26,523 nucleotides of DNA. It comes from a virus. The stretch covers positions 1 to 26,523 of IMG/VR virus record IMGVR_UViG_3300032116_001139; one strand, given 5' to 3'. Positions 4,676 to 21,887 of this stretch are shown piece by piece (position 1 is the first letter of the stretch; each line of letters starts with the position of its first letter). Below the pieces are notes generated by a model, which saw only the letters and a program-made list of their open reading frames with translations, ran no database searches and had not been told where the DNA came from. The position numbers were made by a program, and so were the translations under genes.

Positions 4676-6496
4676 TTACTGAGCAAGTTGGTTTTGACGG
4701 GCTTCAGCGCCCGCGAGTGCGTTCGTCACCACAGCCGCCGGCGCTGCTGCGCGCTGCGCTGCGGCGCCTGTCGCGCGGATAGCGCCAGTGGCGCCTTGTA
4801 CTGCCCCTGCGCGGCGTTGCGCGGCCTCAAGGGCGAGCGCAGCCGTCTCGGGTTGCAGCATGTCAGTGGCGATTTCAATAGCGAGCTTGCGGTCAATTTT
4901 ACCGGCCAAACGCTTCAGGATCGCGTTGGCCACAGTCGTGACGCGGTTAAGCAACGTCGGCATCGTCACGCCGCCTGCCGCCTCGACCAAGAGCTGCGTG
5001 CCAGCCGTCTCAGCACTGGGGCCAGCCGGGCGTGCCGCGCGAGCTTGCTCGCGGTACTTTGCCTGGCGCGCCAAGTCCTTGCGGATGTTTTCGACGATAT
5101 TGACTTGATCGGGCGTGAGCACGTCGGAGAGCTTTTCATAGCGCGGCGCGCCCGCAGCAGCACGCTGGATCGTCTGCGGCGCGGCTTCAACAGCCCCCGC
5201 AAACGCTGCCGGGCGGAGTTTTTCTTCGCCTTGCAGCGCTGAAGTCAGCTTGCTCTCAAGGTACTGACCAACTTCCATCTGGTTAATTGGCTTGCTACGC
5301 GCCTGAAACGCGCTGCGTGCCGTGCCATATTCCGGCACTTGGCCTTCTAACCAGCTAATAAACTCTTTGCGCGTGCCGGCGATTTTGCTGGCTTCAACTT
5401 TGCCAATGCCATAAGTCGCGGGGTTTTGCACCAAATCATCTAGCGCCATTTTAACGTAGTGCATGTCGGCAGCGGTATAACTACCGCTTGCACCAAACGA
5501 CGCGCCTTCTTCTGCCGCCAAGTCTTTAGCGCGGTCAAACGCTTTTTTCACTGACGGACGCGATTGCAAGGCTTTAAGCGTAGCGTCTTCGGCGACGGCT
5601 TTGGCGCCAGCCTGCCCGTAAAGCAAATTAGCTTCAGCCGCGCGGGCCATTCTAGCCGACGTAAGCTGTGCCTCAGTGCCGCCCACCTCGCGGATAGAAG
5701 CCGCGCGAGCGGCGTCTTGGGCTTGTCGGCGTGCCATGTACGCGGAGGGCAGAATCTTCTCTGCCGACTCTTGCAGCGCCGAAAAGCGCGTCGCGCCTAC
5801 AGGCGCTGCGGCCTCGCCAGCCGTCGGCATAGCGCCCGGTACAATCTCAGGCTGCTGACGCAGCGCGTTAATAATCTCCGGCGCGCGGCCTTCAGCGGCT
5901 TCAAGTAGCACGTTGGCCTTACCGCCGATCGCGGTACGCTCTAGCGCGTTGATACCCGCGCGACCCGCAGCCGCCACCGGCGCTGTGATGACACGGGTGG
6001 GGTCCGTAACGCGAGAAACCGTGCCAAGCACTTGACCTGCACGTCCCGGCGCTGCCGCAGCACCAACGCCCGTGATGGTAGACACGTCGGCGGCAAAGCC
6101 AACGGGGTCTGTAGCAATGGTGTTCTTGAGCGCCTCGACGCTGCCATAACGGTCGCGGTAAACGCCGCCGACAGCGTTGGCCTTTTCAATAAACTCTTGT
6201 GCCTTGTCGGGTCGTGCCATCCATTCTTGCGGGATAAACCGAGCGTACGCGCCGGTCAGCACCTCGCCGAGTTGCTCCAACGTCTCGCGCGGACGCGTGA
6301 CAGCCGTGTAGAGGCCTTTAAGCATTTGCATCCCGCTCTCAGGGATGTTGCTAACGGCTTCCCGTCCGACCTGCGCCCATGTGCGCCCGGTCGGCATGAC
6401 ATCCTGACGCTGTTGAGCCAAGTACGCATCGGGGTCAAACGCCGGTGCGGTAGATGGCTTCTTTTGCGCCAGATACGCGTCTGGATCAAAGGCCAT
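4676..6496 (-). CDS. Putative internal virion / DNA ejection protein (606 aa)
   Basis: A large Ala-rich, mostly helical protein. It opens with two copies of AFDPDAYLAQ (residues 2-11 and 19-28), a short motif I recall from N-termini of phage injection or internal virion proteins. The middle has amphipathic and hydrophobic helices (for example TDPVGFAADVSTITGVGAAAA, about 130-150) and the C-terminus is almost entirely Ala/Arg/Gln helical. It is the third of three consecutive genes between the fibre module and the lysis cassette, where podophages such as P22 and T7 carry proteins ejected with the genome. No lytic transglycosylase motif is seen. The ATG at 6496 is preceded by GGAG about 10 bases upstream. 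Function is inferred from position and composition. Confidence 0.65.
   Translation of the reverse strand: MAFDPDAYLAQKKPSTAPAFDPDAYLAQQRQDVMPTGRTWAQVGREAVSNIPESGMQMLKGLYTAVTRPRETLEQLGEVLTGAYARFIPQEWMARPDKAQEFIEKANAVGGVYRDRYGSVEALKNTIATDPVGFAADVSTITGVGAAAAPGRAGQVLGTVSRVTDPTRVITAPVAAAGRAGINALERTAIGGKANVLLEAAEGRAPEIINALRQQPEIVPGAMPTAGEAAAPVGATRFSALQESAEKILPSAYMARRQAQDAARAASIREVGGTEAQLTSARMARAAEANLLYGQAGAKAVAEDATLKALQSRPSVKKAFDRAKDLAAEEGASFGASGSYTAADMHYVKMALDDLVQNPATYGIGKVEASKIAGTRKEFISWLEGQVPEYGTARSAFQARSKPINQMEVGQYLESKLTSALQGEEKLRPAAFAGAVEAAPQTIQRAAAGAPRYEKLSDVLTPDQVNIVENIRKDLARQAKYREQARAARPAGPSAETAGTQLLVEAAGGVTMPTLLNRVTTVANAILKRLAGKIDRKLAIEIATDMLQPETAALALEAAQRRAGAVQGATGAIRATGAAAQRAAAPAAVVTNALAGAEARQNQLAQ
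6413..6493 (-). repeat. Two-copy peptide-level repeat AFDPDAYLAQ
   Basis: Codons 2-11 and 19-28 of the 606-aa ejection protein encode the identical decapeptide AFDPDAYLAQ, 17 residues apart. Seven of ten codon pairs differ at the DNA level (GCC/GCG, GAT/GAC, CCA/CCC, GAC/GAT, TAT/TAC, CTG/TTG, GCG/GCT), all synonymously, so the peptide is preserved although the DNA copies have diverged. Confidence 0.95.
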
Positions 6497-16721: not shown

Positions 16722-16740
16722 TTTGATTCCTTACGAATCC

Positions 16741-16757
16741 CTGGTGAACCGCACCAG
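16741..16757 (-). promoter_or_regulatory. Stem-loop in the 5' UTR of the scaffold/capsid transcript
   Basis: CTGGTG and CACCAG form a 6-bp inverted repeat around a 5-base loop. It lies about 10 bases downstream of the -10 box and 20 bases before the scaffold start codon, so it would be at or just after the transcription start. A 5' stem-loop could protect the abundant capsid mRNA; an operator for a dimeric repressor is an alternative. Confidence 0.6.
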
Positions 16758-16766
16758 TACGGGTAA

Positions 16767-16794
16767 ATCATAGTTTGTTGCGTAAAAGAGTCAA
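16767..16794 (-). promoter_or_regulatory. Strong sigma70-like promoter for the scaffold/capsid genes
   Basis: On the minus strand TTGACT (16794-16789) is followed by a 16-base spacer and TATGAT (16772-16767), each one mismatch from consensus. It lies in the 76-base gap between the tailspike stop (16798) and the scaffold start (16721), one of the few gaps in the late operon. The -35 is embedded in AATGCTTGAC, shared with the early promoter near position 114. It would use host RNA polymerase and raise capsid expression above the upstream packaging genes. Confidence 0.75.
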
Positions 16795-16797
16795 GCA

Positions 16798-18630
16798 TTA
16801 GCCCATAAATGCCAGCGTAGCAACTCTGTATGAGCCAAGACGGTTTTTGACGTTTACCTTTCCGTCCGCAAACCAGACATTAAACTTGCCGTCAACATCG
16901 GGATTTGACCCTGTAGTGGATACCTCAAACAAGTCGCCGCTTGCTGCCGCAAGTTTGTGGATCTGATTACTTCCGCAAGCAAAAAGCCCTTGGGTAGTGT
17001 ATTCAAAGTCTACACTTATCGTAAACAAACCTCGGCTTGCAAAATAAAAACGCGGAGCAAACGCGTACGATGCGTCATCATCCAATCCTTGGGACTGGAC
17101 AGACACAGCGCCGCCAAGATTCAAATCGGTAAGCGCAGCGCCAGCAAGCAAAGGCGCTTTGTTGTTAGAAGTTGTTGTATAGGAATTGGTAAATCCTTGG
17201 TTTAACCCGCCAAGTAACGCGCCACCGTAAGTGGTGCCGGCGCCGGTTGTTGTAGTGACAAACGGCTTAACATTAGCCGGAGTTGCTACGCCATCAATGT
17301 TCATCACATTTGTGGCGACAATATCATAGTTCGTATCCGTGCCGTTTGTACCAACAGCAGAATAGACAAGGCTTGGCACAACGACGTTATCTAGTCGAAC
17401 CGTACCATAAGCGCCCGCAGCAAAGCCTGTGGTTACGATCCACTTGACGGGGTTTTTATTTACCGAAACATTGCTAATAGAAATCAGCGGTTTAGTGGGA
17501 ACGCCAATACCGGCGGAGGCCACCGTCGCGCTGACAACTTGGTCTATGACGTGGGTTCCCGTAGTTACGCCGGGGTCAATAGAGTTGAATACTTGTAGCC
17601 CGTTAACCATCGAGCTTGCTGAATCTTCGCTGTAGTCGGCTGAATGGTAAAAACTGACCAGCGCTAATCCAGTTTGAATCGGGGATTTTGCGCCGCCGTC
17701 GTACCCACGATAGAAGAACTGGCAGTTGGATACCATGCCAACGCCATACTGGAAGTTAATTTCCGTACTACCGCCATAGATTGTAGACCCATCATCACGA
17801 ATAATGGTCTCATCGCGGACGGAACCCACGGCTTGAACTTTTATGGCTCGCCCAGCGCAGTTGCGAAAGACGTTGCCGTATGAAGTTAGTGTAGAGTCAA
17901 CATATTGCCCAGAAATAGTCGTTGGATCGGGGCCAAAAAACTTAAATGCGTCAAAATCAACGTTGTTTGGCGAGCTAACGGCATCGTCGCCAAAAATAGC
18001 GGCGTATTGGTTGCCGTAGTGCATACACTCTCGAACGTACTGAGTGCTGCTGTACTGCGATACGGCAATACCCGTTGTTCCCGTTGATCCCGGCGACCCA
18101 GTACCCGCCGCGCGGGTAATTAGCCTAACTCTGTTGTTTGCTATTGTTACTAATTGAAACGAGCCAGATACGTTAACGGCTTCGTTGTATATGCCCGTAA
18201 CATTCATCCTAAAACGAATAAAAACATTGTTAGAGATTGTGCAATTCGGAAGAGTGTTAACGCTTGGCGTTGCTGTATTGTAAATGGCTAAACCGGCAGC
18301 AATTTTGCTATTGCCATCAAACGTCAAACCGTCAACTGTCAACGAATTGTTATTAACTTCAATTCGTATTAAATAGTTTTGATTGTTAGTCGCTCCGGTA
18401 TAGATAAAAGTACCGTGGCCGTACAATGTCACATTTGTAGGAATCGTTGCCGTCACGTTGGACGACAGCGCATACGTTCCAGGCGGTATGTAAACGTATT
18501 GCGCACCAGACTCTAAAGCGTTTTTAAGCGCCGTAGCGTTGTTGGTCGCTCCGTCTGCTACCGCACCAAAATCGAGGATGTTGGCTTGAGAGCCATCAAT
18601 CATCGAGTATGTGACTTTGGTAAGTGCCAT
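16798..18630 (-). CDS. Tailspike with pectate-lyase-type beta-helix (610 aa)
   Basis: After a short N-terminus (MALTKVTYSMIDGSQANI) the beta-helix entry motif ILDFGAVADGATNNATALKN (18-37) marks the pectate_lyase_3/glycoside-type domain found in phage tailspikes that bind or cut surface polysaccharide. Repeated short beta rungs continue to about residue 440 (for example TISNNVFIRF, NVFRNCAGRAIKV, NCQFFYRGYDGG). The C-terminal 150 residues form a separate domain. There is no virion-anchor domain of its own, so it may attach through a neighbouring fibre. The region is AT-rich compared with the capsid genes. The start follows the upstream stop by two bases and has no obvious ribosome site, suggesting coupled translation. 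Enzyme specificity cannot be read from the sequence. Confidence 0.8.
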   Translation of the reverse strand: MALTKVTYSMIDGSQANILDFGAVADGATNNATALKNALESGAQYVYIPPGTYALSSNVTATIPTNVTLYGHGTFIYTGATNNQNYLIRIEVNNNSLTVDGLTFDGNSKIAAGLAIYNTATPSVNTLPNCTISNNVFIRFRMNVTGIYNEAVNVSGSFQLVTIANNRVRLITRAAGTGSPGSTGTTGIAVSQYSSTQYVRECMHYGNQYAAIFGDDAVSSPNNVDFDAFKFFGPDPTTISGQYVDSTLTSYGNVFRNCAGRAIKVQAVGSVRDETIIRDDGSTIYGGSTEINFQYGVGMVSNCQFFYRGYDGGAKSPIQTGLALVSFYHSADYSEDSASSMVNGLQVFNSIDPGVTTGTHVIDQVVSATVASAGIGVPTKPLISISNVSVNKNPVKWIVTTGFAAGAYGTVRLDNVVVPSLVYSAVGTNGTDTNYDIVATNVMNIDGVATPANVKPFVTTTTGAGTTYGGALLGGLNQGFTNSYTTTSNNKAPLLAGAALTDLNLGGAVSVQSQGLDDDASYAFAPRFYFASRGLFTISVDFEYTTQGLFACGSNQIHKLAAASGDLFEVSTTGSNPDVDGKFNVWFADGKVNVKNRLGSYRVATLAFMG

Positions 18631-21524: not shown

Positions 21525-21887
21525 TCACGCTAAGAAGCGCAGCTTATACAAAGTGCTCAAGTAAAGAGCCACAATTTCGTCAATAATGTTCTGAATTGCA
21601 GAGTCATCTTCGTCGCAAAACTTGTAGCGATTCGCTTCAATTTCGGCCAAAGACTCCTGCAAAAACTCAATGACGTTGCCGTTTTTCTTGGCCGATTGCA
21701 ACGTAATTGGGCCGATCAAGCCATGACGGCCCTGATAGGCTTCCGCAAACGTATCTGCCAAGTCGATGATACCGTCGTAAAATGCCCCCAGCGCCTGATG
21801 CTTGGCATAGCTACGCGTATTGAGATGCACTGAATGGGTGACATCTCGCGCTAGGAATAAGTGCCCGACAAAATCTGCTGGTTTCAT
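21525..21887 (-). CDS. DUF5856-like helical-bundle (ferritin/Dps-like) protein
   Basis: A 120-aa, mainly helical protein with features I recall from the phage DUF5856 group: HSVHLNTRSYAKHQALGAFY (about 18-37), DLADTFAEAYQGRHGL (about 42-57) and the C-terminal DEIVALYLSTLYKLRFLA. The spacing of His, Asp and Glu residues in helical segments recalls four-helix ferritin-like bundles, though a full metal site cannot be confirmed from sequence. It follows the portal with a four-base ATGA overlap and is therefore a late protein. A virion-associated or DNA-protecting role is only inference; the family assignment is moderately sure. Confidence 0.7.
   Translation of the reverse strand: MKPADFVGHLFLARDVTHSVHLNTRSYAKHQALGAFYDGIIDLADTFAEAYQGRHGLIGPITLQSAKKNGNVIEFLQESLAEIEANRYKFCDEDDSAIQNIIDEIVALYLSTLYKLRFLA

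Follow-up and report, generated by a model that had tools for sequence, protein, structure and literature searches.

The 76-nt gap in front of the scaffold gene of this phage would be the leader of a late mRNA that folds into a compact cis-regulatory RNA, made up of an H-type pseudoknot and a hairpin (P2) over the Shine-Dalgarno (SD) sequence. From comparative sequence analysis and by analogy, we think it reasonably probable that this conserved leader RNA is a translational operator for the scaffold protein, similar in its working to the leader of T4 gene 32. That its ligand is the free scaffold protein is a more tentative proposal. That the pseudoknot and SD hairpin occur almost universally in related leaders suggests that translation (or mRNA stability) is controlled here, beyond any extra transcription.

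The window, which is the whole 26,523-nt stretch analysed and comes from an IMG/VR virus record, carries P22-like coat, portal and scaffold genes, all on the minus strand (Table 1). The gap before the scaffold gene is the widest among the neighbouring genes listed from the portal gene to the ORF at 4676-6496, the remaining intergenic gaps there ranging from -8 to 51 nt; the terminase-portal interval of 749 nt is occupied by small ORFs. The sequence-only reading of this DNA had placed promoter boxes, a stem-loop, an AGGA and the scaffold ATG in the 76-nt gap, and had proposed that the gap is kept for regulation. Every one of these elements was found where it had been placed, and the regulatory proposal is supported by an RNA structure in the gap that is conserved across relatives. 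Absent from that reading were the pairing of the loop with upstream bases, which makes the pseudoknot, and the second conserved hairpin with the SD sequence. Adjoining the portal gene, a 120-aa protein (21525-21887, minus strand) matches phrog_858, 'starvation-inducible transcriptional regulator' (E 6e-26), and is a possible candidate for a regulator of the late genes.

Table 1. Features of the scaffold leader and its surroundings (window coordinates).
Feature	Position	Strand	Basis or remark
P22-like coat gene, 403 aa	14712..15923	-	phrog_283 E 1.7e-74; PF11651 E 2.7e-36
Scaffold gene, 258 aa	15945..16721	-	phrog_8865 head scaffolding, E 3.8e-29
Scaffold start ATG	16721-16719	-	sequence
Hairpin P2, 3' arm GAAUC	16725..16729	-	covarying arms
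Shine-Dalgarno AAGGA	16728..16732	-	sequence; in loop and 3' arm of P2
Hairpin P2, 5' arm GAUUC	16735..16739	-	arms covary; arm-swap test
Pseudoknot stem S2, 3' arm CACCAG	16741..16746	-	covariation
Pseudoknot stem S1, 3' arm CGG	16749..16751	-	covariation; inside loop of the stem-loop noted earlier
Pseudoknot stem S2, 5' arm CUGGUG	16752..16757	-	covariation; 5' half of the stem-loop noted earlier
Loop L1, UA, nearly invariant	16758..16759	-	91-row alignment A1; UA in most distant members too
Pseudoknot stem S1, 5' arm CCG	16760..16762	-	pairs with 16751-16749; covariation
-10 box TATGAT (predicted)	16767..16772	-	16-nt spacer; 4 nt before S1
-35 box TTGACT (predicted)	16789..16794	-	10/12 sigma70 match with -10 box
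Upstream neighbour, 610 aa, pre-neck appendage/tailspike-like	16798..18630	-	phrog_33142, phrog_4775

The stem-loop noted earlier is one half of the pseudoknot: its loop bases CGG (16751-16749) pair with CCG (16762-16760). The loop thus pairs outside its own hairpin, and covariation of S1 and S2 indicates that both stems are conserved, as in an H-type pseudoknot. The complete leader runs from S1 (3-4 bp) through L1 (2 nt), S2 (6 bp), L3 (1-2 nt), one G and the SD hairpin to the AUG, with the pseudoknot 20-odd nt upstream of the scaffold AUG. The fold of the window by itself is modest (-13.1 kcal/mol, z -1.78), and 12 of 200 shuffles fold equally well.

Relatives were collected by their coat genes from viral contigs (three sets of 80 loci) and phage records, and the leaders of their scaffold genes were read. 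We left out 11 loci in which the scaffold start is truncated at the end of the contig, 4 that lacked any scaffold match, some loci without a scaffold-profile ORF beside the coat gene, and those with wrong or cut starts (L207, L264, L270, L292, L294, L314, L328 and L355); L211 was kept with its start corrected. Removal of redundancy by similarity reduced 135 close leaders to the 91 of alignment A1. Loci selected by pattern in the gene-blind scan described below were excluded from every covariation count.

In A1, 87.1% of the S1 and S2 cells were paired, compared with 72.9 +/- 0.7% when partners were shuffled and 27-45% in slid registers, and two-sided changes numbered 139 against 42.5 in the shuffled control. 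S2 was paired in 90.5% of cells and showed two-sided changes at all 6 pairs; S1 alone had 41 double-changed cells against 10.3 shuffled. Parsimony counts on a FastTree scaffold tree gave 27 compensated double changes for S1 (0-2 in slid registers) and 52 for S2 (0-3), figures that are approximate because the parsimony cost of a double change was set at 1.9 steps. Aligning the gap in related phages and looking for covariation in the stem was the check that the sequence-only reading had proposed, and its stem came through with those 52 changes. The S1 arms occur as CCG/CGG (26 of 91 rows), CTG/CAG (19), CCT/AGG (7) and TCG/CGA (3), and more rarely as CCC/GGG (2), ACG/CGT (2) and ATG/CAT (1). In the fixed register S1 is not fully paired in 31 of the 91 rows, being broken, gapped or wobble; 12 of these are CCG/AGG and are rescued by a one-base shift, if the alignment is read in that way. 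S1 often has 3 bp only, since its outermost possible pair does not form in 37 of the 91 rows. RNAalifold on A1 reported S2 as the sole stem. Of 145 unique leaders, 101 were positive in a strict pseudoknot scan, as were 14% of shuffles and 20% of random genome windows; the leaders that the scan missed include some with a mismatch within S2.

P2 begins one base downstream of S2 and reads GAUUC-GUAAG-GAAUC in the window. Its loop length varies among relatives and no single register holds, which is why RNAalifold misses it and why fixed-register pairing is split (49.7% in the chosen register of A1 and 75.6% one column off). We therefore used an alignment-free swap test, in which the native arms reached a score of 10 in 81 of 91 leaders and swapped arms in a mean of 20.5 leaders and a maximum of 34. 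The arms appear as GAATC/GATTC, GATTC/GAATC, GTTTC/GAAAC, GTTCC/GGAAC, AACTC/GAGTT and GCTCA/TGAGC. With a permissive word list, an SD-like word lay within the loop or 3' arm of 70 of the 90 P2 hairpins found. P2 is AU-rich and may open unaided.

To reach further, 23 of 35 distant scaffold leaders were taken, one per lineage, chosen by eye. Under the strict rule 14 of the 23 carried the pseudoknot, compared with 3.15 expected from dinucleotide shuffles (P ~ 3e-8), with letters that are mostly unrelated; examples are ACC-UA-CCAAUG-GGU-UU-CAUUGG in L356 and AAGC-UA-CCCAUG-GCUU-CAUGGG in Vibrio phage VvAW1. The leaders of L287, L345 and L362 look right by eye, yet fail the strict rule or its 60-nt limit. 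In the scaffold leaders of P22, EBPR podovirus 1, Rhodoferax phage P26218 and Xanthomonas phage PBR31 no pseudoknot was found.

Upstream of the pseudoknot, the promoter boxes taken alone are not beyond chance: 16.5 kb held 4 promoter-like sites against 7.9 in shuffles, TTGACT/TATGAT being the sole 10/12 match among the four. Promoters of at least 9/12 ending 0-15 nt before S1 were present in 28 of the 91 leaders (2.0 expected), and those of at least 10/12 in 13 (0.3 expected), the control being simple shuffles of two-base blocks. Boxes with sigma70 spacing (16-18 nt) thus located occur in the window and are conserved in place in 28 of the 91 leaders; the other 63 fall short of a 9/12 match. 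The window promoter is probably real, judging from this comparison. Since its -10 box lies 4 nt before S1, the start is predicted at about 16762-16758 and may fall inside S1, in which case mRNA born at this promoter would lack the full pseudoknot. Where present, the promoter would supply extra mRNA for scaffold and coat that does not depend on the upstream genes, and in that subset of relatives the message would begin with the pseudoknot. It is dispensable, because locus L002, with a scaffold 97% identical, retains the RNA structure outside the 28 promoter-bearing leaders and because 63 of 91 leaders have no 9/12 match. The earlier idea of a dedicated promoter for scaffold and coat thus holds for a subset of relatives but does not give the main point of the gap; of the boxes and the stem, which that idea did not expect to be lost together in a relative, the stem is kept whereas the boxes often fail.

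Two further observations concern the DNA before scaffold leaders. In L213, L220, L222, L234 and L238, short inverted repeats with varying arms surround a -10-like box (for example CAGCATAATGCTG); they may form a third hairpin or serve as an operator. Hairpins that resemble terminators, with runs of T, immediately precede the scaffold leader in L084 (PAE2, upstream of 3795) and L376 (PBR31, upstream of 466) and would separate it from the portal message.

We propose that the pseudoknot is the recognition site and P2 the gate. With the factor unbound, the SD hairpin would open and scaffold would be translated; a trans-acting factor on the pseudoknot would hold the adjoining hairpin shut, and scaffold synthesis would drop. 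If the factor were free scaffold protein, scaffold synthesis would be coupled to the consumption of scaffold in procapsids. The strongest candidate for the ligand is scaffold itself, because the window protein appears to be a remote relative of P22 gp8, a scaffold that reportedly lowers its own synthesis after transcription (Wyckoff and Casjens, 1985). The relationship is suggested by sequence and by a predicted structure, each line of support being weak alone: the P22 scaffold ranked first in Foldseek with a probability of 0.99, though with an E of 0.26; a profile match between the two scaffolds had an E of 0.049; and PF09306 matched the window scaffold with an E of 0.0014 and 18.5 bits, below the curated cut-off of 25 for membership in the P22 gp8 family. 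The scaffold model is helical with a mean pLDDT of 75.7, the first 38 residues being of low confidence, and this predicted model shows no RNA-binding site. The two scaffolds share the same job in capsid assembly; in P22, by contrast, the gap before gene 8 is 13 nt and no pseudoknot was found in it.

The other readings that we weighed differ in how they treat the stems. If the boxes alone drove transcription of scaffold and coat, the 10/12 match and its enrichment in relatives would be explained, but many leaders hold the stems without a promoter. The compensatory changes in S1, S2 and P2 mean that the hairpins cannot be incidental, and they refute the promoter as a full account, leaving this reading next to no probability. 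A small-molecule riboswitch is hardly more credible. PreQ1-I is a small pseudoknot riboswitch, which the element resembles in size and topology, and an SD hairpin adjoins the pseudoknot here; however, there is no Rfam match (none at gathering score with the covariance models in the window and 7 further loci, and nothing sensible over the element even at E<=10), only 2 of the 65 columns of A1 are invariant, and the element precedes virion genes, not metabolic ones. A DNA operator or recombination palindrome is disfavoured: the loop-to-upstream pairing covaries, and the G-U pairs that occur on the sense strand of the stems in A1 point to RNA.

Two readings that accept the RNA structure deserve more weight, though both seem unlikely to us. 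In the better of them the pseudoknot is a 5'-end stabiliser that protects the message from 5'-end-dependent decay and gives scaffold-coat mRNA a longer life than the upstream part, with no ligand involved. The -10-like boxes, which peak 4-10 nt upstream of S1 and would place the start at the structure, are in its favour; against it, the structure is kept regardless in the 63 leaders without a 9/12 promoter, and the covarying hairpin over the SD sequence is left unexplained. Rather less probable again is an operator for a phage or host protein other than scaffold, co-regulating several late genes that bear the element. This would account for copies before phrog_6228 genes and a few others (three different genes in L112, L147 and L153), but 114 of the 120 matches listed in the gene-blind scan precede scaffold and most whole records have that copy alone. 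A scan of bacterial and archaeal genomes found no host copy, which makes a host regulon improbable.

For a translational operator of this kind there is a working precedent in phages. According to two papers, the T4/RB69 gene 32 leader contains an H-type pseudoknot of ~28 nt upstream of the SD region, and in T4 this pseudoknot is autoregulatory for a product made in stoichiometric amounts (PMC535899, PMC3014915). As described there, the likeness is that of a phage leader of similar size in which a pseudoknot precedes the ribosome-binding site of the gene under control; the window leader differs in its phages and its gene and has no sequence relation to gene 32. In those descriptions gene 32 has an unstructured AU-rich stretch with UUAAA repeats from pseudoknot to AUG, and its repression is proven, whereas in the window leader repression is what we infer. 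We do not place the window leader in the gene 32 family, because a covarying SD hairpin replaces the UUAAA stretch. In E. coli, the translational operator of the assembly protein S15 (rpsO) also contains a pseudoknot, according to one of these papers (PMC3014915); this is a bacterial ribosomal protein, unrelated to the window element in sequence and gene. No earlier description of the element was found in the open-access literature searched, a scope outside which most subscription journals fall, and neither capsid nor coat protein occurs as a term in the main text of a 2010 survey of 104 structured RNAs. A phage leader pseudoknot is already known from T4 gene 32; the window element differs from it in its gene, its SD hairpin and its phages.

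More broadly, these leaders may form a new family of phage regulatory RNAs, in which the pseudoknot and SD hairpin are bound by free scaffold so that assembly meters scaffold translation. If so, the family would occur in short-tailed phages from freshwater samples and in those of Vibrio, Shewanella, Thalassomonas and Pseudomonas, and would at times have been copied to other late genes. We hold this combined proposal a little more loosely than the identity of the ligand. If true, it would provide the molecular operator for scaffold autoregulation and add a second example to the pseudoknot leaders of phages, this one sampled widely and belonging to a gene of capsid assembly. The old question of how head assembly and scaffold synthesis are coupled would be directly testable with a 45-nt RNA and purified protein, and late phage operons would be seen to hide covarying RNA switches outside Rfam in gaps of less than 80 nt. 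What counts against a scaffold operator is that other genes also carry the element, that P22 and the three other phages named above are without it, that S1 is imperfect in some leaders, that P2 may open unaided and that the window promoter may start within S1.

The distribution of the element bears on this point. A gene-blind DNA scan, with a pattern that fixed 17 bases of one sequence version and left S1 free, gave at least 120 matches; among the 120 listed, 114 precede a scaffold-profile ORF, 3 lie where a contig ends and the remaining 3 precede other genes, one each in L112, L147 and L153. Isolates that carry the element include Thalassomonas phage BA3, Shewanella phage X14 and phage DSL-LC05. 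Covariance model R1 was run on a subset of the loci (52 and 58 of them). By this model, 24 of 26 whole records had one main copy, in the scaffold leader, with a second weak match in three; the records of L082 and L364 had no match at E<=1. R1 barely reaches distant phages (4 matches at E<=1 in 58 sources). A descriptor scan combined with a protein search found pseudoknots of the same type before phrog_6228 genes, in about 12 of 30 distinct leaders judged by eye. These are small genes (80-87 aa) of unknown function, often just upstream of the scaffold leader. Such a second pseudoknot lies at L041:5818, L070:4866, L203:1341, L224:1330, L234:1317, L247:1321, L256:1315, L274:1324 and L077:4161, and also in L185, L227 and L232, where the linker is UG in place of UA. 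Copies before other genes lie in L112 (3333, minus strand), L147:2042, L153 (8108, minus strand) and L349:446; one of these genes neighbours lysis-like genes and another a portal gene. Because pseudoknots of the same type precede other late genes, a ligand confined to scaffold is not required. It is possible that the leader has spread between phages.

The bacterial and archaeal genome scan gave 7 matches, six of them without context and one true. The true match (L379) is a phage scaffold fragment in a metagenome-assembled genome (MAG), and a host-borne element was rejected. In that record (CP070643.1, 7522-7598), a MAG given as a chromosome, a run of N links the scaffold fragment to unrelated chromosomal sequence, probably through a mis-join. 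In L373 (MW202674.1, 1465-2256) the annotation splits the coat gene in two around a small ORF, as though an insert had interrupted it.
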